From assembly GCF_017356245.1 (NCBI RefSeq), contig NZ_JAFMZZ010000001.1, positions 884,262-948,261 of the forward strand: DNA of 64,000 nucleotides. Reading direction: 5' to 3'. The DNA comes from Bordetella petrii (lineage in GTDB: Bacteria > Pseudomonadota > Gammaproteobacteria > Burkholderiales > Burkholderiaceae_B). How positions within the stretch are numbered: position 1 is the stretch's first letter; each line of letters starts with the position of its first letter. The position numbers and the translations under genes were made by a program. The notes under the pieces are model-generated. The model had not been told where the DNA came from. It did no database searches and saw only the letters and a program-made list of their open reading frames with translations. Shown piece by piece: positions 1,898-63,133 of this stretch.

Positions 1898-2434
1898 TCA
1901 GCGCCAGACCTCGGGCTCTACCGTGACCTGCCCCTGGTCCGCCGACACAAAGGCGGCGCCGTCCTGCACATTCACGTGCAGGTCCATGGTGCGTTCGGCC
2001 AGCAGACCCAGCTCGCGGGTCTGGCCGGCCGGCAGGTTCACTACCCGCAGGTTGCGCGCCCGCGCCAGCTTGCCGCGCACGCCTTCCCACCAGATCGTGC
2101 TGGCGTGCCCGCCATAGCAGTACACCACCACCTGCGCGGCGCGGCCGCAGGCCTTCAGAATGCGGCGTTCGTCGGGCTGGCCGACCTCGATCCAGAGCTC
2201 GATGGCGCCGGTCAGGTCTTTCAGCCACAGGTCGGGCTCGTCGGTGTCGCTCAAACCCTTGGTGAACGCCAGGCCTTCCTGCGCATGCAGGGCATAGGCC
2301 AGCAGCCGCACCATCATGCGCTCGTCGGTTTCCGAGGGATGGCGCGCCACGGTCAGCCCGTGGCTGCCGTAGTAATGGCGATCGCCGTCGGCGACGTGCA
2401 GATCGGCTTTGTAAATGGTTGCGCGCAAGGCCAT
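1898..2434 (-). CDS. yaeQ: YaeQ family protein
   Basis: The 178-residue protein matches YaeQ over its whole length. It starts MALRATIYKADLHVAD, has the HPSETDERMMVRLLAYAL block near residue 32 and the DEPDLWLKDL and LWIEVGQPDE blocks in the middle, and ends with VEPEVWR. YaeQ proteins have a compact fold related to PD-(D/E)XK nucleases. A role as suppressor of RfaH loss was once proposed and later disputed, so the biological function is unsettled. ATG at 2434 is the only sensible start. It is convergent with ubiC and divergent from the LysE-type exporter. Confidence 0.85.
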   Translation of the reverse strand: MALRATIYKADLHVADGDRHYYGSHGLTVARHPSETDERMMVRLLAYALHAQEGLAFTKGLSDTDEPDLWLKDLTGAIELWIEVGQPDERRILKACGRAAQVVVYCYGGHASTIWWEGVRGKLARARNLRVVNLPAGQTRELGLLAERTMDLHVNVQDGAAFVSADQGQVTVEPEVWR

Positions 2435-2550: not shown

Positions 2551-3210
2551 ATGACGCCCACCGCCGCTCTGCTTGCCTTCTGTATTGCCGCCGGCATCCT
2601 GACCCTGACCCCGGGCCTGGATACCGCGCTGGTGCTGCGCACCTCGGCCGTCGAAGGCGGCCGCCGCGCCCTGTTGGCCGGGCTGGGCATCTGCGCCGGC
2701 TGCCTGGTGTGGGGCGTGGTGGTGGCGCTGGGGCTGGGATCGCTGCTGGCGGCCTCGCAGATGGCGTACGACATCCTGCGCATCTGCGGCGCCGCCTATT
2801 TGTTCTACCTGGGCATCAGACTACTGTGGCGTACGCTGCGGGGCGGGCGGCCGGCCGCCCTCTTGCAGGAAAAGCACACGTCGCCTCATGAACAGGTTTT
2901 CACTTCGGGCACCGGCGCCCAGTGGTTCTGGCGCGGCTGCCTGACCAATGTCCTGAACCCCAAGGTGGGGGTGTTCTACGTGACCTTTCTGCCGCAATTC
3001 ATGCCCGCCGGCGTCAGCGTGCTGGGTTTCAGCCTGCTGCTGGCGGGGCTGCACGCCCTGATGGGCGTGCTGTGGTTCGCCGTGCTGGTGGCGGCCACCC
3101 GGCCGCTGGCGCGCTGGCTGCAGCATCCCGCGGTCATGCGCGGCCTCGACGGCCTGACCGGCACGGTGTTCCTGGCGTTCGGCTTGAAGCTCGCGCTGGA
3201 CCGGCGCTGA
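2551..3210 (+). CDS. LysE-family amino acid exporter
   Basis: A 219-residue integral membrane protein with about six hydrophobic segments. It starts MTPTAALLAFCIAAGILTLTPG, the typical RhtB/LysE opening with the conserved TPG motif near residue 20; the middle has NVLNPKVGVFYVTFLPQF, another family hallmark. These proteins export amino acids or their derivatives across the inner membrane, but the substrate cannot be read from sequence. ATG at 2551 was preferred over 2521 because GGAG precedes it at a proper distance and the TPG motif then falls in place. A hairpin at 3261-3291 lies between this gene and convergent leuB. Confidence 0.85.
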   Translation: MTPTAALLAFCIAAGILTLTPGLDTALVLRTSAVEGGRRALLAGLGICAGCLVWGVVVALGLGSLLAASQMAYDILRICGAAYLFYLGIRLLWRTLRGGRPAALLQEKHTSPHEQVFTSGTGAQWFWRGCLTNVLNPKVGVFYVTFLPQFMPAGVSVLGFSLLLAGLHALMGVLWFAVLVAATRPLARWLQHPAVMRGLDGLTGTVFLAFGLKLALDRR

Positions 3211-3260
3211 CGCGCCTTGCCAGGGCCTGGCCAGGTATCAACCAGGTGTGGCATCAACCA

Positions 3261-3291
3261 GGTGTCTGGCTCCCGCAGGGAGCCAGACACC
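3261..3291. repeat. GGTGTCTGGCTCCC hairpin between convergent genes
   Basis: A perfect 14-base inverted repeat (3261-3274 and 3278-3291) with a GCA loop lies between the LysE gene and leuB, which converge. Related hairpins occur at 21536-21569 and 45461-45489, also just after coding ends. It could act as a bidirectional terminator, although no T-run follows, or be a dispersed intergenic repeat. Confidence 0.75.
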
Positions 3292-3307
3292 AGATGAACC
3301 GCCCGCC

Positions 3308-4384
3308 TCAGCCCAGTGCCTTCAGCACGGCATCGCCCATCTGGCTGGTCGACACCTTGGTGGTGCCGGGCTCGTGGATGTCGGCGGTGCGCAGGCCCTC
3401 GGCCAGCACCGCGCGCACGGCGGCCTCGATGCGGTCGGCCTGCGGCGCCAGGTTCAGCGAATAGCGCAGCAGCATGGCGGCCGACAAGATGGTGGCCAAC
3501 GGGTTGGCGATGCCCTGGCCGGCGATGTCCGGCGCCGAGCCGTGGCTGGGCTCGTACAGCCCCTGCCCCGACGCGTTCAGCGATGCCGATGGCAGCATGC
3601 CGATAGAGCCGGTCAGCATGGCGGCCTCGTCGGACAGGATGTCGCCGAACAGGTTGCCGGTCACGATCACATCGAACTGGCGCGGATTGCGCACCAGCTG
3701 CATGGCGGCATTGTCCACATACATGTGCGACAGTTCCACGTCCGGATAGTCGCGCGCCACTTCGATGACGATGTCGCGCCAGAACTGCGAGGTTTCCAGC
3801 ACGTTGGCCTTGTCCACGCTGCACAGCTTCTTGCCGCGCTTGCGCGCCGATTCGAAGCCGATGCGCGCGATGCGGCGCACCTCGGAATCGGCATAGCGCA
3901 TGGTATCGAAGCCTTCGCGCTCGCCGCTGAAGGCGCCGTCGGCCGCATTGCGCACGCCGCGCGGGGTGCCGAAATAGATGTCGCCGGTCAGCTCGCGGAT
4001 GATCAGGATGTCCAGGCCCGACACGATCTCGGGCTTCAGCGACGAGGCGCTGGCCAATTCGGGATACAGAATGGCCGGACGCAGGTTCGCGAACAGGCCC
4101 AGGGCCTTGCGCAGCCCCAGGATGGCCTGCTCTGGGCGGAACTCGCGCGGCAGGCTGTCGTATTTCCAGTCGCCCACGGCGCCGAACAGCACGGCGTGCG
4201 AGTTGCGCGCCAGGTCCAGCGTGGCGGGCGGCAGCGGATGTTCGAACTGGTCGTAGGCGGCGCCGCCCACCGGCGCCTGCTGAACCTGCAGCGGCAGATC
4301 CAGCGCGCCCAGCACGCGCACGGCCTGTTCGACGATCTCGGGCCCGATGCCGTCGCCGGGCAGCACTGCGATGTTATGCGTCAT
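3308..4384 (-). CDS. leuB: 3-isopropylmalate dehydrogenase
   Basis: LeuB oxidises and decarboxylates (2R,3S)-3-isopropylmalate with NAD+ to 4-methyl-2-oxopentanoate in leucine synthesis. The 358 residues start [17 protein letters not shown], the nucleotide-side motif of the beta-decarboxylating dehydrogenases. The protein contains the [14 protein letters not shown] block, the metal/substrate stretch [20 protein letters not shown] and the [18 protein letters not shown] signature. It is the last gene of leuC-leuD-leuB on the minus strand. It is separated from leuD by 264 bases of repeat-rich DNA, so it may be expressed partly apart from leuCD. The paralogous dehydrogenase at 45571 is a different subfamily. 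Confidence 0.96.
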
Positions 4385-4477
4385 GAAAGAACCTATGAAT
4401 GAATATCGAAAATTTGGAATGGCGCATCCGCGGGAGCCTTATTCAGCAGTAGGCGCCATCCGTACCGCGTAAAACAG

Positions 4478-4660
4478 GTGTGGCCGGATCGGGGACGCCG
4501 CGGAGCCGGCTTTGCCGGTCCGCCAGCGTCGCCCCTTGAGGGGGATGAGCCCGGACATGGAACAGTCCTTGAGGACTGTTCCATGCCTGGCGAATCCGAG
4601 CGGCCTGCCAGCCGCGAGGTGGAACGCGCGCAGCGCTTCGGGGGTGGGTCATACCACAGG
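4478..4660. repeat. composite intergenic repeat with nested hairpins (leuD-leuB gap)
   Basis: The leuD-leuB gap contains no credible gene. It holds CCCC-TTGA-GGGG (4532-4543) and a perfect 13-base inverted repeat starting CATGGAACAGTCC (4556-4568 and 4573-4585), also with a TTGA loop. An imperfect stem lies near 4499-4522, and a GCGCAGCGCTTCGGGGGTGG segment at about 4627-4646 resembles the terminator-like DNA after the Rieske gene. This looks like a mosaic of dispersed intergenic elements that ends at or just inside the 3' end of leuD. Attenuation or mRNA processing within the operon is possible but unproven. Confidence 0.55.
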
Positions 4661-5299
4661 CCGGCTTTCCAGCCACGGGTGGCGGGCCAGCCGCTCGGCT
4701 TCGAAAGCGCGGATCTTGTCGGACTGGCGCAGGGTCAGGCCGATGTCGTCGAAGCCGTTCAGCAGGCAGTACTTGCGGAACGGTTCGATATCGAACGGCA
4801 TTTCGCGGCCGTCGGCGGCCACCACCACCTGCCGTTCCAGATCGATGCGCAGCTTGTAGCCGGGAAAGGCCTTGACCTCGTCGAACAGGCGCGCCACCTC
4901 GAGTTCGGACAGCACGATGGGCAGCAGGCCGTTCTTGAAACTGTTGTTGAAGAAAATGTCGGCATACGAGGGCGCGATGATGGCGCGAAAGCCGTACTGC
5001 GTCAGCGCCCAGGGCGCGTGCTCGCGGCTGGAGCCGCAGCCGAAGTTCTTGCGCGCCAGCAGCACCGACGCCCCCTGGTAGCGCGGCTGGTTCAGCACGA
5101 AGTCCGGGTTCAGCGGCCGCTTGCTGTTGTCCATGCCCGGCTCGCCGTGATCCAGGTAGCGCAGTTCGTCGAACAGGTTGGGGCCGAAGCCCGTGCGCTT
5201 GATGGACTTCAGAAACTGCTTCGGGATGATGAGGTCGGTGTCGACGTTCTCGCGGTCGAGCGGGGCCACCAGGCCTTCGTGAGTGGTAAATGCTTGCAT
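4649..5299 (-). CDS. leuD: 3-isopropylmalate dehydratase, small subunit
   Basis: LeuD is the swivel-domain subunit of isopropylmalate isomerase and works with LeuC to convert 2-isopropylmalate to 3-isopropylmalate. The 216 residues start [30 protein letters not shown]. They carry the family blocks [15 protein letters not shown] and [17 protein letters not shown], which bind the substrate side chain. Length and motifs are ordinary. The gene begins 12 bases after leuC ends, so the two are surely co-transcribed and probably translated in a coupled way. Its 3' end runs into the repeat element. Confidence 0.95.
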
Positions 5300-5311
5300 G
5301 ACGGGTGACCT

Positions 5312-6715
5312 TTAGCGGAAGTTGCGGACGTCGACGAAATGGCCGGCCACGGCGGCGGCGGCGGCCATGGCCGGGCTGACCAGGTGCGTGCGCCCGCCCT
5401 GCCCCTGGCGCCCCTCGAAGTTGCGGTTCGAGGTCGAGGCGCAGCGCTCTTCGGGCTCGAGGCGGTCGGCGTTCATGGCCAGGCACATCGAACAGCCGGG
5501 TTCGCGCCATTCGAAGCCGGCCTCGATGAAGATCTTGTCCAGCCCTTCACGCTCGGCCTGCTGCTTGACCAGGCCCGAACCGGGCACCACCATGGCCTGC
5601 CGCACATTGGAAGCCACGTGCTTGCCGCGCGCCACCGCGGCGGCGGCGCGCAGGTCTTCGATACGCGAGTTGGTGCACGAGCCGATGAACACCCGGTCGA
5701 CGCGGATATCGGTAAGAGGCGTGTTGGGCTTCAGGCCCATGTACTGCAGCGCACGCTCCATGCCGCTGCGGCGCACATCGTCTTTTTCGCGATCGGGATC
5801 GGGCACGCGCGAATCCACCGGCAGCACCATTTCGGGCGAAGTGCCCCACGTGACCTGCGGCTTGATGTCCTTGGCATTGACCTCGACCACGCGGTCGAAG
5901 CTGGCGCCGGCATCGCTGTGCAGCGTGCGCCAGTAGGCCACGGCCTGATCCCACAGCACGCCGTTGGGCGAAAACGGCCGGCCGCGGAAATATTCGATGG
6001 TCTTGTCGTCCACCGCCACCATGCCCGAGCGGGCGCCCGCTTCGATGGCCATATTGCACACCGTCATGCGGCCTTCGACCGACAGGTTGCGGATGGTGCT
6101 GCCGGCGAATTCGATGGCGTGGCCGGTGCCGCCGGCCGTGCCGATAATGCCGATGATATGCAGCACCACATCCTTGGCCGTACAGCCGAACGGCAGTTCG
6201 CCCTCGACCTTGATCAGCATGCTCTTGGCTTTTTTCATCAGCAGCGTTTGCGTGGCCAGCACATGCTCGACCTCTGACGTGCCGATGCCGAATGCCAGCG
6301 CGCCCAGCGCGCCGTGCGTGCTGGTATGCGAATCGCCGCACACCACCGTCATGCCGGGCAGCGTGGCGCCCTGCTCGGGTCCGATGACGTGGACAATGCC
6401 CTGGCGCAGGTCGGCCATGCGGAATTCGGTGATGCCGTACTTGTCGCAGTTCGAGTCCAGCGTGTCGACCTGCAGTTTCGAGATGGGATCGTCGATGCCG
6501 CGCGCACGGTTCAGCGTGGGCACGTTGTGGTCGGCCACGGCCAGGTTGGCGCTGGTGCGCCACGGTTTGCGGCCGGCCAGGGCCAGGCCTTCGAACGCCT
6601 GCGGGCTGGTGACTTCATGCAGCAGGTGGCGGTCGATATACAGCAGACAGGTGCCGTCGGATTCCTGGTGGACGACGTGTGCGTCCCAGAGTTTGTCGTA
6701 AAGAGTTTGGGCCAT
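5312..6715 (-). CDS. leuC: 3-isopropylmalate dehydratase, large subunit
   Basis: LeuC is the aconitase-like large subunit (467 residues) that holds a [4Fe-4S] cluster and, with LeuD, isomerises 2-isopropylmalate. Visible family motifs include [20 protein letters not shown] and the cluster cysteines in [12 protein letters not shown] and [16 protein letters not shown] at 6715 ([15 protein letters not shown]) was preferred to an upstream in-frame start because it matches the usual LeuC N-terminus. It is the first gene of the leu operon, with a good promoter about 60 bases upstream. Confidence 0.96.
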
Positions 6716-56436: not shown

Positions 56437-57348
56437 ATGCCCCGGCCCCATGCCGCCGATCTGTCCGGCCCGCCGCCGTCGCCCGGCTCCGGTATCGCGC
56501 TGTATCTGGCGGCGCTGGTGCTGTTCGCCAGCTTCGACGCCGCGATCAAGCACCTGCTGACGCTTTATCCGGCGCCCTTCCTGAACGTAATGCGCTACCT
56601 GTCGGTGGCCACCATCGCCGCGGGTCTGGTGCTGCGCCACGGGTTGCCGCGCCTGTCGGCCACGCCCGACAAGGGGCTGCTGCTGTTGCGCGGGCTCATG
56701 CTTGGCACCGTGGGCACCTGCTTCATGACAGCCCTGATCTGGATGCCCCTGTCAGAGGCCACCGCCATCTATTTCACTTCGCCGCTCATCGTGGTGGCCC
56801 TGTCGCCCTGGCTGCTGCGCGAGCGCGTCGGCGCCCGGCAATGGGCGGCGGTCGCGCTGGGCTGCGCCGGCATGCTGCTGATCGTGCGGCCGGGCGGCAG
56901 CCTGCCATGGCTGGGCACCGCGCTGATGGCGGTCTCGGCAGTCAGCTATGCGCTGTTCCAGGTCTTGACCCGCAAACTCTCGGGCCGCGTGCCCGGCCAT
57001 GTGCAGTACGGATACACCGCCTTCGTATGCCTGGCCGTCACCGCGCTGCCGGCGCCGTTCTTCCTGCCCGACCCATGGCCGGCGCTGCGCGACTGGGCGG
57101 CAATCGTGCTGCTGGGCGTCACCAATGGATTGGGCCAGATATTGCTGATCGCCGCCTTCCGGCGAGTGCCCGCCTCGACACTGGCGCCGTTCAATTACTG
57201 CCACCTGCTGATGGCCGTGGCTTTCAGCACCTTCGTATTCGGCCGCCCGCCCGATGTGCTGGCCATGGCGGGCATGGCGCTCATCGTGGCGGCCGGCCTG
57301 TCGCTGGCTGCTGCCCGCGGGCCGGCCTTGCCGGGCGGCGGGCGCTAG
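56437..57348 (+). CDS. EamA/DMT-family transporter
   Basis: A 303-residue inner-membrane protein with ten predicted helices, starting with a polar 25-residue leader. It contains LIWMPLSEATAIYFTSPLIVVALSPWLL, the EamA pattern. It begins 19 bases after the deacetylase gene and so belongs to that operon, perhaps exporting a pathway product. Its stop shares the CTAG with the hemN stop on the other strand (overlap 57345-57348). Confidence 0.87.
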   Translation: MPRPHAADLSGPPPSPGSGIALYLAALVLFASFDAAIKHLLTLYPAPFLNVMRYLSVATIAAGLVLRHGLPRLSATPDKGLLLLRGLMLGTVGTCFMTALIWMPLSEATAIYFTSPLIVVALSPWLLRERVGARQWAAVALGCAGMLLIVRPGGSLPWLGTALMAVSAVSYALFQVLTRKLSGRVPGHVQYGYTAFVCLAVTALPAPFFLPDPWPALRDWAAIVLLGVTNGLGQILLIAAFRRVPASTLAPFNYCHLLMAVAFSTFVFGRPPDVLAMAGMALIVAAGLSLAAARGPALPGGGR

Positions 57349-58730
57349 ACGATGCGCGAATATTGCGCCTGGGTGCGGCGTTCGCGCAGATGCCGGTCAA
57401 ATACCATGGCCACCGCGCGCACGAAATACCAACCCAGGTCGCTGACGTGCAGCCCGTCGGGCCGGCACTGCACCAGCCCCATGCCGGCCAGGTTTTGCAG
57501 CGCCTGCAGCTCATCGGCGAAATAAGATTCGAACACGATGCCGTGCGCCTGTTCGACGGCGCGGAAATCCAGCCCGCCCTGGCACATGATGGCCATGATG
57601 ACGTCGCGGCGCAGCAGGTCGTCGGCGCTCATGGCCAGGCCCCGCTCGACCGCGAACTCGCCCTGGTCGATGCGCGCGTAATAGCCGTCCAGGGTCTTGG
57701 CGTTCTGGCTGTAGGTGGCGCCCACGCGCCCGATGGCCGATACGCCCAGGGCGATCAGGTCGCGGTCGGGCTGGGTGCTGTAGCCCTGGAAATTGCGGTG
57801 CAGGCGCCCCGCCCGCTTGGCCTGGGCCAGTGCGTCATCGTGCAGGGCGAAGTGGTCCATGCCGATGTAGTCGTAGCCGGCATCCAGGAAGCGCGTGATG
57901 GCTGAACCCAGCAGGGCGATGCGCGTCTCGCCGTCGGGCAGCTCGGCCGGCAGGATGCGGCGCTGCGCCTTGAAGCGTTCCGGCAGATGCGCGTACCCAT
58001 ACAGCGCGATGCGGTCGGGCCTCAAGCCGCAGACCTGTTCCAGCGTGCGCGCGAATGATTCGGCGGTCTGCAGAGGCAGGCCGTAGATCAGGTCCATGTT
58101 CACCGACGCATAGCCCAGCTGCCGGGCGCTGTGCATCAGGTCGCGCACGCTTTCGTACGGCTGCATGCGGTGCACGGCGCGCTGCACCGCGGGGTCGAAG
58201 TCCTGCACGCCCAGGCTCAGGCGGTTGAACCCCAGGCCGGCCAGGTACGCCAGGCGCTCGGCCGTGGCGGTGCGCGGATCGACTTCGACAGAGATTTCGG
58301 CGTCGGGCAGCAACTGAAAGTGGCTGCGCAGCGCCGCCATCAGGCCGTCGAGTTCGGCGTCGGACAGGAAAGTGGGCGTGCCCCCGCCGAAATGCAGCTG
58401 CGATACCGGTACGCCGCGGCCGACCAGGCTGCTGTGCAAGGCCATTTCACGCCGCAAGGCATCCAGGTAGCGCGCCGCGCGCTCATGGTGGCGCGTGATC
58501 ACCTTGTTGCAGGCGCAGTAGTAGCAAAGCGACTCGCAGAAAGGAATGTGCACGTACAGCGATAGCGGGCCGCGCGCCCTATCCTGCGCGCGACAGGACA
58601 GCGCCTGGCGGTACTGTGCAGGCCCGAAGCTGGCGTCGTAGCGGTCGGCGGTGGGATAAGAGGTGTAGCGCGGGCCGTTCTTGTCGAGCCGGGCCAGGAT
58701 GTCGCGCGAGAATGAAGGCGGGGATTGCAT
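57345..58730 (-). CDS. hemN: oxygen-independent coproporphyrinogen III oxidase
   Basis: HemN decarboxylates coproporphyrinogen III to protoporphyrinogen IX without oxygen, by radical SAM chemistry. The 461 residues contain the cluster motif CESLCYYC (Cys65, Cys69, Cys72) preceded by YVHIPF, and the GGGTPTFL block; length and spacing match E. coli HemN (457). ATG at 58730 (MQSPPSFSRDILARL) matches the family start. It diverges from nrdD, and a FNR-type box lies about 35 bases upstream. Confidence 0.95.
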   Translation of the reverse strand: MQSPPSFSRDILARLDKNGPRYTSYPTADRYDASFGPAQYRQALSCRAQDRARGPLSLYVHIPFCESLCYYCACNKVITRHHERAARYLDALRREMALHSSLVGRGVPVSQLHFGGGTPTFLSDAELDGLMAALRSHFQLLPDAEISVEVDPRTATAERLAYLAGLGFNRLSLGVQDFDPAVQRAVHRMQPYESVRDLMHSARQLGYASVNMDLIYGLPLQTAESFARTLEQVCGLRPDRIALYGYAHLPERFKAQRRILPAELPDGETRIALLGSAITRFLDAGYDYIGMDHFALHDDALAQAKRAGRLHRNFQGYSTQPDRDLIALGVSAIGRVGATYSQNAKTLDGYYARIDQGEFAVERGLAMSADDLLRRDVIMAIMCQGGLDFRAVEQAHGIVFESYFADELQALQNLAGMGLVQCRPDGLHVSDLGWYFVRAVAMVFDRHLRERRTQAQYSRIV

Positions 58731-58764
58731 GAATCGATTATGCAAAGCGGCACTGCCGGGCATG

Positions 58765-58778
58765 TTGATTCTTCGCAA
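58765..58778 (-). promoter_or_regulatory. FNR/ANR-like box near hemN (TTGAT-N4-CGCAA)
   Basis: TTGAT (58765-58769) and CGCAA (58774-58778) around four bases match eight of ten positions of the FNR consensus TTGAT-N4-ATCAA. Its centre is about 41 bases from the hemN start codon. This supports anaerobic control, though the start site is unknown. Confidence 0.55.
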
Positions 58779-58802
58779 ACAAACCGCAGATGAGCGCAGC
58801 AA

Positions 58803-58890: not shown

Positions 58891-60897
58891 ATGAAGTATC
58901 CGCCCATGATGCCCCAAGAAATCCTCAAGCGCGACGGCCGCATCGTCAGCTTCGACGGCGCCAAGATCGTCCATGCCATCGCCGCCGCCGGCCAGGCCAC
59001 CGGCGAAATCGACGCCGCCGCCGCTGAAATACTGGGCGCACGCGTGGCCGCTCGCCTGGCCGGCCACCTCCGCCCCGGCATCGAAACCATCCAGAACCTG
59101 GTCGAAGAAGCACTGGTCGAAGCAGGCTGCTGGCACACGGCGCGCGCCTATATCGTCCACCGCGAACGCCACGCCCGCCTGCGCTCGCTGCAGCACACGC
59201 TGGTCGACGTCGAAAGCGCCATGGAAGAATACCTGGACCAGCGCGACTGGCGCGTCAACGCCAACGCAAATCAGGGCTACAGCCTGGGCGGCCTGATCCT
59301 GAACGTGGCCGGCAAGGTCACCGCCAACTACTGGCTGTCCCATGTATACAGCCCGGCCGCGGGCCAGGCCCACCGCGAGGGCGACATCCACATCCACGAT
59401 CTCGACATGCTCAGCGGCTACTGCGCCGGCTGGTCGTTGCGGCAACTGCTCACCGAAGGCTTCAACGGCATCCCCGGCAAGGTCGAGGCCACGCCGCCGC
59501 GCCACATGTCCGCCGCCATCGGCCAGATCGTCAACTTCCTGGGCACCCTGCAAAACGAATGGGCCGGCGCCCAGGCGTTCAGCTCGTTCGATACCTACAT
59601 GGCACCGTTCGTACGCCGCGACAACATGTCGTACGCCGAGGTCAAGCAGGCCATGCAAGAGCTCATCTACAACCTCAACGTGCCCAGCCGCTGGGGCACC
59701 CAGACGCCGTTCACCAACCTCACGTTCGACCTCACCTGCCCGGCCGACCTGCGCGAGCAGGTTCCCTACATCGGCGGCCAGGAAATGCCGTTCAGCTACG
59801 GCGATCTGCAGGTCGAAATGGACATGATCAACCGCGCCTACATCGAAGTCATGATGGCCGGCGACGCCAAGGGCCGGGTGTTCACGTTCCCCATCCCCAC
59901 CTACAACATCACTGCCGATTTCGACTGGGACCACCCCAATACCGAACTCCTGTTCGACATGACCGCCAAGTACGGCCTGCCGTACTTCCAGAATTTCCTC
60001 AATTCCGATCTCGAACCCCACATGGTGCGCTCGATGTGCTGCCGGCTGCAGCTCGACCTGCGCGAACTGCTCAAGCGCGGCAACGGGCTGTTCGGCTCGG
60101 CCGAGCAAACCGGCTCGCTGGGCGTGGTCACGGTCAACTGCGCGCGGCTGGGCTATCTGCATGCCGGCAACGAGCCCGCCCTGTTCCAGCGCCTGGACAC
60201 CCTGCTGGAACTGGGCCGCGACGTCCTCGAAGTCAAGCGCAAGGTGGTGCAGCGCTATATCGACCAGGGCCTGTATCCCTACACCCGTCGCTATCTGGGC
60301 ACGCTGCGCAACCACTTCAGCACGCTGGGCGTGAACGGCATCAACGAAATGGTGCGGAACTTCAGCGGCGATGCGTACGACCTCACCGCGCCCCAGGGGC
60401 ACGCGCTGGCCGTGCGCCTGCTCGACCACGTACGAGCCCGCATGACCGAATTCCAGGAAGCTACCGGGCATCTGTACAACCTCGAAGCCACACCGGCCGA
60501 GGGCACCACCTACCGCTTCGCCCGCGAAGACCGCAAGCGCTGGCCCGGCATCCTGCAGGCAGGCACCGATGCCCAGCCCTACTACACCAATTCCAGCCAG
60601 TTGCCGGTGGGCCACACCGACGACCCCTTCCACGCGCTGGCCATGCAGGAAACCCTGCAAAGCAAGTACACCGGCGGCACGGTGCTGCACCTGTACATGA
60701 ACGAAGCCGTATCCTCGGCCAGCGCCTGCCGCCAGCTGGTGCGGCGCGCGCTCGAAAACTTCCGCCTGCCCTATATCACCATCACCCCTACGTTCTCGAT
60801 CTGCCCCACCCACGGATACTTGTCCGGCCGGCACGAATTCTGCCCCAAATGCGATGCCGAACTGCTCTCCCGGCAGCAGGCATGCAGCCACGGCTAG
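58891..60897 (+). CDS. nrdD: anaerobic ribonucleoside-triphosphate reductase, catalytic chain lacking the glycyl-radical segment
   Basis: Class III ribonucleotide reductase that makes deoxynucleotides without oxygen. An ATP-cone covers about residues 9-98 (ILKRDGRIVSFDGAKIV). Active-site cysteines fall at Cys178 (SGYCAGW) and Cys383/Cys384 (RSMCCRLQL), matching Cys175 and Cys384 of E. coli. A zinc site is visible at the C-terminus (Cys638, His641, Cys651, Cys654). The chain ends eleven residues after CPKCD (ELLSRQQACSHG region) and has no RVxGY motif; the glycine that carries the radical is missing from this chain. It is encoded in the next small gene. No good ribosome binding site precedes ATG 58891; ATGs at 58906 and 58909 are alternatives. 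Confidence 0.93.
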   Translation: MKYPPMMPQEILKRDGRIVSFDGAKIVHAIAAAGQATGEIDAAAAEILGARVAARLAGHLRPGIETIQNLVEEALVEAGCWHTARAYIVHRERHARLRSLQHTLVDVESAMEEYLDQRDWRVNANANQGYSLGGLILNVAGKVTANYWLSHVYSPAAGQAHREGDIHIHDLDMLSGYCAGWSLRQLLTEGFNGIPGKVEATPPRHMSAAIGQIVNFLGTLQNEWAGAQAFSSFDTYMAPFVRRDNMSYAEVKQAMQELIYNLNVPSRWGTQTPFTNLTFDLTCPADLREQVPYIGGQEMPFSYGDLQVEMDMINRAYIEVMMAGDAKGRVFTFPIPTYNITADFDWDHPNTELLFDMTAKYGLPYFQNFLNSDLEPHMVRSMCCRLQLDLRELLKRGNGLFGSAEQTGSLGVVTVNCARLGYLHAGNEPALFQRLDTLLELGRDVLEVKRKVVQRYIDQGLYPYTRRYLGTLRNHFSTLGVNGINEMVRNFSGDAYDLTAPQGHALAVRLLDHVRARMTEFQEATGHLYNLEATPAEGTTYRFAREDRKRWPGILQAGTDAQPYYTNSSQLPVGHTDDPFHALAMQETLQSKYTGGTVLHLYMNEAVSSASACRQLVRRALENFRLPYITITPTFSICPTHGYLSGRHEFCPKCDAELLSRQQACSHG

Positions 60898-60965
60898 GCG
60901 CCCGCGCGCCCGGCATCGCGGGCCCCGGCATCGCCCGGCCCGCTTCTTTTCCCACAGGAGCTCTC

Positions 60966-61136
60966 ATGCAAACCGTAACCTCTGCCCCCACCCTGCCCCT
61001 CGACGACAGCCAACGCGTGCGCTGCGAAATCTGGACGCGCGTCATGGGCTATCACCGCCCGGTCACCTCGTTCAATACCGGCAAGCAGGGCGAATTCAAT
61101 GAACGCCGCTTCTTCTCCGAACAACGCGCTGCCTGA
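60966..61136 (+). CDS. separate glycyl-radical domain of NrdD (56 residues)
   Basis: A small protein containing CEIWTRVMGYHRPVTSF followed by NTGKQGEFNERRFF. This matches the C-terminal glycyl-radical segment of class III reductases (RVCGY and NAGKQEE in E. coli). Gly28 would hold the radical. It has its own strong site (ACAGGAGCTCTC before ATG) and lies in a different frame from nrdD, 68 bases downstream, so it looks like an independent gene. Together with NrdD it gives 724 residues, close to the 712 of E. coli NrdD. nrdG starts inside it. GrcA is a known parallel: a separate glycyl-radical subunit that rescues pyruvate formate-lyase. Confidence 0.88.
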   Translation: MQTVTSAPTLPLDDSQRVRCEIWTRVMGYHRPVTSFNTGKQGEFNERRFFSEQRAA

Positions 61137-61860
61137 CGCCGGCGGCGCCGTCCCCCGATGGGCCGCGGCGCCGCCAGCCATGCTGGCGGTGCCGCGCGGC
61201 GAACCCTCCATCGGCGGCATCGTGCCCTATTCCAGCGTCGACTGGCCCGGCATGCTGGCCTGCGTGGTGTTCATCGCCGGATGCCCCTGGCGCTGCAGTT
61301 ACTGTCACAACCCGCACCTGCAAGTGCGCGGCGGCCACTACGACTGGAACGCCGTGCTCGAATTCCTGCGTAGCCGGCAGGGCCTGCTCGACGCGGTGGT
61401 CTTCTCGGGCGGCGAACCGCTCAGCGAACCCCGCCTGCCGCAAATGGTGCGCGCGGTCAGGACACTGGGGTTCCGCGTGGCACTGCATACGGCGGGCATC
61501 TACCCGTCGCGTCTGCGCGAACTGCTGCCCAGCCTCGACTGGGTGGGTTTCGACGTCAAGGCCGATGCCGCGGGCCACGATGCCCTCACCGGCCGCACAG
61601 GCACTTACCCGGCCGCCCAGGCCTGCCTCGATTCGCTGCTGGCCAGCCGCGCCAATTTCGAATGCCGTACCACCTGGCACCCCGACTGGTTGACCGAGCC
61701 CGCCCTGCTCGACCTGGCGCGCGATCTCGCCCGGCGCGGTGTGCGCCATTACACGGTGCAAAACCATCGCCCCTCGCCCGGCTCCGCGCCCTCCGCCGCG
61801 CTCAGCGCCGCCGCGCTCGACGAACTCCAGGCGCTCTTTCCGCAATTCCTCTATCGCTAA
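61099..61860 (+). CDS. nrdG: NrdG-type radical SAM activase
   Basis: A 253-residue radical SAM protein that generates the glycyl radical on NrdD. The cluster motif is CPWRCSYC (Cys62, Cys66, Cys69), preceded by GIVPYSSVDWPG; FSGGEPL is the SAM-binding motif. ATG at 61099 overlaps the glycyl-radical gene by 38 bases in another frame. A later ATG at 61180 would remove the overlap but lacks a ribosome binding site; both retain the cluster. The length is longer than E. coli NrdG (154) and closer to the larger NrdG-like activases. Confidence 0.9.
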   Translation: MNAASSPNNALPDAGGAVPRWAAAPPAMLAVPRGEPSIGGIVPYSSVDWPGMLACVVFIAGCPWRCSYCHNPHLQVRGGHYDWNAVLEFLRSRQGLLDAVVFSGGEPLSEPRLPQMVRAVRTLGFRVALHTAGIYPSRLRELLPSLDWVGFDVKADAAGHDALTGRTGTYPAAQACLDSLLASRANFECRTTWHPDWLTEPALLDLARDLARRGVRHYTVQNHRPSPGSAPSAALSAAALDELQALFPQFLYR

Positions 61861-61939: not shown

Positions 61940-63133
61940 ATGTGGTTCAAAACACTGACTCTCGCCGGCCGTGAGCTGCTACCCATCGTCCAAGGCGGCA
62001 TGGGGGTGGGCATCTCGGCGCATCGCCTGGCCGGCGCGGTCGCAAGCGAAAACGCCATCGGCACCATCGCCAGCGTCGACCTGCGCCATCACCACCCCGA
62101 CCTGCTCGAAAAAACCATCAAGTGCCGCGACCGGGATGCCATCGACCAGGCCAACCGCACGGCGCTCGACCGCGAAATCCAGGCCGCGCGCCAGCTGTCC
62201 AGGGGCCGCGGCCTGATTGCCGTCAATGTCATGAAAGCGGTGCGCGATCACGCGGCCCTGGTGAAACAGGCCTGCGAAAGCGGCGCCGATGCCATCGTCA
62301 TGGGCGCCGGCCTGCCGCTCGATCTCCCCGAAATGACGGCGGGCCACGACAAGGTCGCCCTCATTCCCATTCTTTCAGAAGCGCGCGGTGTCGCCGTCGT
62401 GCTTAAAAAATGGCTTAAAAAGGGCCGGCTGGCCTCCGCCGTGGTCATCGAGCACCCCGCCCACGCCGGCGGCCACCTGGGCGCCAGCAAGCTGTCCGAA
62501 CTGCGCGACGAGCGCTTCAGTTTCGGCAAGGTGCTGGCCGAATGCCGGGCGCTGTTCGACGAGCTCGGCCTCAGCCGCGATGCGCCCAAGCTCATCGTGG
62601 CCGGCGGGGTGGGCAGCCACGACAAGGTCAGGCATTGGCTCTCCCATGGGGCCGATGCGGTGCAGGTGGGCACGGCCTTTGCCGTTACCGAAGAAGGCGA
62701 CGCGCACCAGAACTTCAAGCAGGTGCTCATCGACGCCGACCCTTCCCAGCTCAAAGAATTCATCAGCGTGGCCGGCCTGCCGGCCCGCGCCGTGGCCACG
62801 CCCTGGCTGGTGCGCTACCTGCGCCAGGAAAAGCGCCTGCAGGAAAACGCCAGGCCCGATCCGCGCCGCTGCACCCAGCGCATGGATTGCCTGACCCAAT
62901 GCGGATTGCGCGACGGCCTGGCCCGTTTCGGCCAGTTCTGCATCGACCTGAAGCTGGCTGCCGCGGTGCGCGGAGAAGTCGACAAGGGGCTGTTCTTCCG
63001 TGGCGGTTCGAAACTGCCCTTCGGCGATGCCATACGCCCTGTGCGCGAACTCATCGACTACCTGCTTCATGGTGTCATGCCAGCCAACGCGCCAATAGCG
63101 CCTGCCGGCAATACCGCCGCCGCGCTGGCCTGA
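61940..63133 (+). CDS. nitronate monooxygenase-like flavoprotein (NPD family)
   Basis: A 397-residue TIM-barrel flavoprotein. The N-terminus LPIVQGGMGVGISAHRLAGAV binds FMN phosphate; VIEHPAHAGGHLG near 170 contains the family His; VAGGVGSHDKVRHWLSHGADAVQVGTAF is another FMN block. The C-terminus has a cysteine pair (CTQRMDCLTQCG), uncommon in nitronate monooxygenases and perhaps a metal site. The role is uncertain, but its place after nrdG and before ubiT suggests a function under anaerobic conditions. A perfect ten-base hairpin follows the gene. Confidence 0.82.
   Translation: MWFKTLTLAGRELLPIVQGGMGVGISAHRLAGAVASENAIGTIASVDLRHHHPDLLEKTIKCRDRDAIDQANRTALDREIQAARQLSRGRGLIAVNVMKAVRDHAALVKQACESGADAIVMGAGLPLDLPEMTAGHDKVALIPILSEARGVAVVLKKWLKKGRLASAVVIEHPAHAGGHLGASKLSELRDERFSFGKVLAECRALFDELGLSRDAPKLIVAGGVGSHDKVRHWLSHGADAVQVGTAFAVTEEGDAHQNFKQVLIDADPSQLKEFISVAGLPARAVATPWLVRYLRQEKRLQENARPDPRRCTQRMDCLTQCGLRDGLARFGQFCIDLKLAAAVRGEVDKGLFFRGGSKLPFGDAIRPVRELIDYLLHGVMPANAPIAPAGNTAAALA

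Follow-up and report, generated by a model that had tools for sequence, protein, structure and literature searches.

A 64,000-nucleotide stretch of the Bordetella petrii genome (hereafter the window) most probably encodes, at a rough probability of 0.88, an obligately two-chain class III ribonucleotide reductase (RNR) with a replaceable radical subunit, copies of which are carried by phages. As class III RNRs are described, their catalytic chain itself bears the radical glycine. Comparison of genomes and viral contigs documents the two genes, their conservation, mutual independence and mobility, and the existence of viral copies standing apart from nrdD; the complex, its radical and the role of the peptide in phages are what we infer. 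The locus comprises the following features (positions are those of the window):

57345-58802, minus strand: HemN-like gene, divergent from nrdD (assigned by eye)
58765..58778, plus strand: FNR/Anr-like box TTGATTCTTCGCAA, with two mismatches against TTGATNNNNATCAA, 5' of nrdD; a weak element
58891..60897, plus strand: nrdD, large chain, 668 codons plus stop (open reading frame list, Pfam)
60802..60852, plus strand: presumed zinc site C638, H641, C651 and C654, the final element ahead of the break (from the motif alone)
60956..60960, plus strand: AGGAG ribosome-binding site of the small gene, five bases 5' of its ATG
60966..61136, plus strand: small radical-peptide open reading frame (ORF), 56 codons plus stop, Gly28 codon at 61047-61049 (Pfam, PHROG 4132)
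61099..61860, plus strand: nrdG, NrdG2-type radical SAM activase of 253 amino acids (TIGR02495, 186 bits against a cut-off of 131)
61940-63133, plus strand: nitronate-monooxygenase-like gene after nrdG (assigned by eye)

The small ORF lies 68 bases downstream of nrdD (gap at 60898-60965) and in a different frame. A dedicated radical SAM activase, as is usual for class III enzymes, is present in nrdG, which overlaps the small gene by 38 bases; this overlap is absent from a preliminary description of the locus made from the letters and ORFs of the window. In another genome (G432, locus L187), nrdD and the small gene are separated by genes similar to the HemN-like and nitronate-monooxygenase-like genes, as if these came from a single anaerobic cluster.

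Both Pfam and a predicted model, which has the class III RNR fold, place the large chain in the NRDD family. It matches the ATP-cone (PF03477, E 1.2e-16), covers positions 2-529 of the 562 of the NRDD model PF13597 and scores 1118 bits against NF006126. C178, C383 and C384 are present, and C178 and C383/384 are invariant across 28 aligned rows; we take their roles to be those assigned in known NrdDs. Neither inspection of residues nor Pfam found a radical-motif glycine in this chain, which stops ahead of the radical motif; in contrast to the class III pattern of a radical glycine in the same chain, that glycine sits in the separate small ORF. The preliminary description of a 668-residue nrdD with an ATP-cone, Cys178 and Cys383/384 and no RVxGY was borne out by the ORFs, Pfam and residues, and the four-ligand zinc site that it reported is present as a motif in which one of the four presumed ligands is a His (H641).

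The small ORF matches positions 532-562 of PF13597 (E 1.6e-7), the end that the large chain lacks, and carries RVMGY with G28 as the radical-motif glycine. PF13597 was its sole Pfam match at E<=10; PF01228, the family of GrcA/YfiD, was not matched. It also matches PHROG 4132 (E 3e-8, residues 14-53 on positions 117-155 of the 179-position profile). Coordinates, the AGGAG and Pfam confirm what had been noted of this gene, namely 56 codons, 68 bases on, in another frame, with its own GGAG site and RVMGY. A protein search restricted to matches of 0.55-1.75 times the query length returned 1254 proteins at E<=1, 120 of them listed. In a 40-codon core, about 9 codons of which overlap nrdG as well, pN/pS was 0.155 (253 pairs from 23 relatives); variation concentrated at codon position 3, and 0 of 10000 permutations gave a bias as strong. 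This shows that the small gene is under purifying selection.

The split arrangement extends far beyond the window. In a single scan of named genomes, a separate RVMGY ORF was present in 79 of the 80 named relatives kept (best segments 72-94% identical); in the 80th (L011), the contig ends 137 bases after the nrdD match. NrdD was found at E<=1e-100 in 82 of 300 genomes of the order. Seventy-nine of these were searched for the small chain, which was detected in 78, and the other three (G000, G003 and G045) carry the small gene too. Within the 79, the two genes are adjacent in 69, distant in 2 and on different contigs in 2, giving a split arrangement in 73; the two parts are fused in 5, all within one genus, and one contig is cut. 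Further genomes from the order, class and phylum gave a small-chain match in 38 of 39 and a fused form in 5 (G498, G727, G147, G234 and G829). The contigs of L011 and G1036 end early, G838 is 75% complete, and in G1001 a contig end falls between the two genes. The preliminary description had supposed that split forms may occur in related genomes and had proposed a search for truncated NrdDs beside a short RVMGY gene; that search, run here, proved the supposition right, both for the named loci (79/80) and for the order (73/79). Surveys based on nrdD and nrdG alone overlook what is probably an essential subunit.

Relative to nrdD, the motif occurs in all three frames (73, 42 and 30 of 145 split loci, near-duplicates included), and the spacing between the two genes ranges from -38 to +431 bases in 144 loci, with starts chosen by us. 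In G432, nrdG comes directly after the small gene, and about 9 kb with opposite-strand genes separate this pair from nrdD. A second genome of that genus, G909, has the small gene together with an nrdG-like radical SAM gene on a different contig, and its nrdD is followed by other genes; in G917 a gap of 2.4 kb separates nrdD from the small gene. In all 75 named loci that allowed the test, nrdG lies no more than 1 kb from the small gene. Gene order in these genomes shows that the small gene is independent of nrdD and keeps company with the activase.

Homologues also exist in which the same parts follow each other in the same order within one chain. Among the best 120 matches (588-740 residues) to a fused Acidiphilium protein, 117 bear the radical motif within the chain itself, and in the 107 chains readable by pattern the linker that follows the final Cys of the zinc motif measures 3-17 residues. 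The rows of the 28-row alignment share 63-75% identity with the large chain of the window. A tree of 85 representatives intersperses fused with split forms, with 13 changes, 7 of them forced by starred branches, and a single fused clade with one fused/split boundary was rejected for the same representatives (p-AU 6e-68). This tree leaves out eleven long or deep rows; with them restored, there were 16 changes among 96, 8 of them forced. Both are quick trees, the input of which omits five rows with a zinc motif missed by the pattern, short-core rows, rows below 40% identity and duplicate or truncated loci, and L119, L124 and L151 received their labels by hand. The interleaving and the rejection of a single clade indicate that the radical module was detached or re-attached repeatedly. 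Function does not require the split, as fused forms occur in 5 of the 79 order genomes, in 5 of the 39 others and in many proteins.

Within the Bordetella genome itself, the small chain had one match only, and one class I/II RNR catalytic gene was found. A search for PF01228 proteins (PFL/GrcA-type) in this genome found none, which rules out PFL or GrcA as the partner of the peptide. The earlier proposal that the two chains form one active enzyme is thus supported by comparative data of several kinds: the conserved separate gene, its occurrence in all frames, its relocation, the fused homologues and a genome without PF01228.

These data also bear on simpler explanations of the locus. As the two ORFs jointly cover one Pfam family and fused forms exist, a sequencing error, pseudogene or recent frameshift might have broken nrdD and left the small ORF as debris. 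However, 79 of 80 named loci and 73 of 79 order genomes have two separate genes, and the small gene has its own start and a pN/pS of 0.155; conservation and purifying selection refute a sequencing error or broken gene, and we give this explanation practically no chance. Programmed frameshifting or read-through across the gap, yielding one full-length enzyme, would agree with the adjacency of the genes in most genomes (69/79), but it conflicts with three relative frames, with spacings of -38 to +431 bases (from chosen starts), with the distance of about 9 kb between the genes in G432 and with their location on different contigs in G909. The three frames and the relocation exclude it as a general route, and for the window it appears extremely improbable. 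A third explanation holds that the peptide is a GrcA-style spare part only and that NrdD works without it. It would follow the same logic as YfiD with cleaved PFL, as set out in the accessible text of PMC8683613, and extra copies of the peptide do exist in other genomes; against this, the large chain has no radical motif, its PF13597 match ending at 529 of 562, and there is a single copy in this genome, which makes such a dispensable role very unlikely.

In the two-chain enzyme that we favour, the 75-kDa chain comprises ATP-cone, barrel, active-site cysteines and zinc site, and the 6.5-kDa peptide would supply the radical loop. The docking, radical and repair steps of this scheme are modelled on the biochemistry of class III RNRs and YfiD. 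The peptide would dock at the site that the C-terminal loop occupies in an ordinary NrdD, the hydrogen of its Gly28 would be abstracted by NrdG, and the glycyl radical would move to a finger-loop cysteine, with which NTP reduction would start. Cleavage by oxygen at the glycyl radical would cost the enzyme no more than the small peptide, which could then be replaced. As the radical subunit would act in trans, phages may carry the peptide alone to charge or maintain the host enzyme.

Copies of the small gene are also found away from nrdD. Seven such extra copies occur in six bacterial genomes, each of which also encodes NrdD with a small gene next to it, and three of the seven lie among clear phage genes (L220, L221 and L222). 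The surroundings of the seven copies are as follows:

L220: holin, endolysin, radical peptide, spanin
L221: tail-fibre assembly, endolysin, radical peptide, spanin
L222: tail-completion gene adjoining
L224: RecT in the fetched stretch
L219: DUF3363 protein adjoining
L223: PHROG of unknown function
L218: copy at 2239-2424, minus strand, beside a B12-binding radical SAM gene and a methyltransferase gene

The L218 copy has no recognised phage genes around it.

A scan of viral contigs revealed a relative of the radical peptide in 124 contigs, 80 of which were kept. RVMGY is conserved in all 80, which fall into 57 groups when a core identity of 90% is taken as the limit. With tblastn (E 1e-5), neither NrdD nor NrdG was found in the fetched stretch of any of the 80 loci, and NrdD was not found in the 50 longest whole viral records, which may be fragments (a search with no positive control of its own, made with the query that found NrdD elsewhere). 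Going by fetched stretches and possibly fragmentary records, these viral copies seem to be orphans. All 46 viral peptides tested of the 80 match both PHROG 4132 and PF13597, and PHROG 4132 was matched by 47 of 47 alignment rows, the window's small ORF included. In three of the 80 (L238, L301 and L304), the motif lies in a frame of more than 200 codons; these may therefore be longer proteins. The neighbours of the viral copies include head closure, portal, terminase, head-tail adaptor, endolysin, replication initiation and thymidylate synthase families, with at least one or two of each among the matches listed; at L310, the copy adjoins the thymidylate synthase gene. No single conserved neighbour was found among the ORFs scanned (53 of 66 upstream, 37 of 64 downstream).

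A second scan detected the large chain in 60 viral contigs. By pattern, 35 of these are fused, and in 17 the locus also contains the radical ORF as a separate frame; in 7 no radical ORF was found, some being cut short, and one (L330) was set aside. In the phage L316, NrdD and a 77-residue radical gene overlap by 7 bases and are followed by a dUTPase gene. The orphan peptide was not found in 50,697 named phage records, in which the matches were fused NrdDs or records annotated as NrdD. Viral contigs that appear to bear the small chain alone are new in this analysis.

We consider it rather probable, if less so than the two-chain enzyme itself, that in a large group of class III RNRs the peptide is an exchangeable plug-in radical module that was often detached and re-attached, and that phages widely carry it alone, as PHROG 4132, to charge or repair the host RNR while infecting at low oxygen. 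The phage copies might instead act as decoys or inhibit the host enzyme or NrdG. Some copies reside in lysis cassettes, an unexpected place for a metabolic helper, which would suit an inhibitor; yet all 80 retain RVMGY, the glycine of which a blocker could do without. The full two-chain pair ahead of dUTPase in L316 and the copy beside thymidylate synthase in L310 likewise speak against inhibition, which we regard as unlikely. A helper function of the phage peptides would suggest a role for a phage family listed as of unknown function (PHROG 4132), and it predicts that phages act on the anaerobic dNTP supply of the host through one short peptide.

The two-chain arrangement shares the ATP-cone, barrel, cysteines, zinc site, radical loop, NrdG and fold with the class III NrdDs of T. 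maritima, P. copri, T4 and E. coli. It differs from them in that the radical glycine is in a separate gene product, not in the catalytic chain, and in the His at one presumed zinc ligand position. GrcA/YfiD and T4 Y06I, the spare parts of PFL, are likewise small separate proteins with a glycyl radical loop for a large glycyl radical enzyme, and T4 Y06I is phage-borne like the viral peptides described here (accessible text of PMC8683613). However, GrcA/YfiD is of the PFL type (PF01228), whereas the small ORF belongs to the NrdD family (PF13597). The partner of GrcA/YfiD has its own radical glycine, whereas the large chain in the window ends before the radical motif; the peptide would thus be obligate, unlike GrcA/YfiD. 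In the accessible text of the same source, activation of YfiD was not detected without cleaved PFL (PMC8683613), and a similar activation safeguard would be expected in a two-chain RNR. Validated spare parts are there limited to PFL, others being speculated (PMC8683613); if our reading is true, a spare-part system would exist for ribonucleotide reductase. A natural 6-kDa radical subunit would also allow radical installation, docking and oxygen repair to be studied without engineering, as with YfiD and PFL.

Other split reductases are of different kinds. The class II RNR NrdJa/NrdJb of P. aeruginosa also consists of two chains, which arose by gene fission (accessible text of PMC9669993; cf. PMC4520616), but its class, cofactor and division are different, NrdJb comprising C-terminal domains without a radical glycine. 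Phage nrdD genes in pieces (accessible text of PMC3653736) owe their breaks to introns, inteins or unexplained causes; here, in contrast, a conserved break isolates the radical loop in many bacterial families. PHROG 4132 is the closest existing entry for the peptide; its profile has 179 positions, of which the matches here span about 114-162. In the open-access literature searched, we found neither a two-chain class III RNR nor phage radical peptides for it described, and exact phrases for split or two-chain NrdD retrieved no papers. A separate NrdD radical chain is not mentioned in the accessible text of PMC9531940, PMC9669993, PMC5645315, PMC4390871, PMC4493059, PMC3019208, PMC11226230 and PMC3653736.

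The split arrangement is also present in Cupriavidus necator H16, on pHG1, where the small ORF is H16_RS32675 and the large chain has a computed mass of 76.2 kDa. The NrdD mass in the 1999 work of Siedow on a split-type enzyme reportedly equals this value. RefSeq lists a 'ribonucleoside triphosphate reductase' and an nrdD 'anaerobic ribonucleoside-triphosphate reductase' for H16, which are not called subunits. According to the accessible text of PMC2864759, nrdDG is essential for complete denitrification in this strain, and the genes of CH34 are given as Rmet_5137 and Rmet_5139, skipping the intervening number. With regard to regulation, an FNR-like box with two mismatches at most was found in 53 of 79 named relatives as compared to 7 of 79 shuffled regions (one shuffle each; region boundaries approximate).

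Several minor observations concern the chains themselves. Cys20 of the small peptide, eight residues N-terminal to the radical glycine, is invariant across 21 aligned rows and kept in 77 of the 80 viral peptides, and Thr takes its place in some fused relatives (L125, L173). On a plasmid of Bradyrhizobium japonicum (L153), the small gene and nrdG are annotated, the large chain matches residues 301-659 only and an IS3-type transposase lies upstream; nrdD is probably broken there. Fused-type NrdDs of gut and rumen phages (L151 at 3001-5391 and, by pattern, L327-L338 and others) are prolonged at the C-terminus by about 90-190 residues. The added part of the L151 protein is a glutaredoxin/thioredoxin domain, suggestive of a reductant built into the enzyme.
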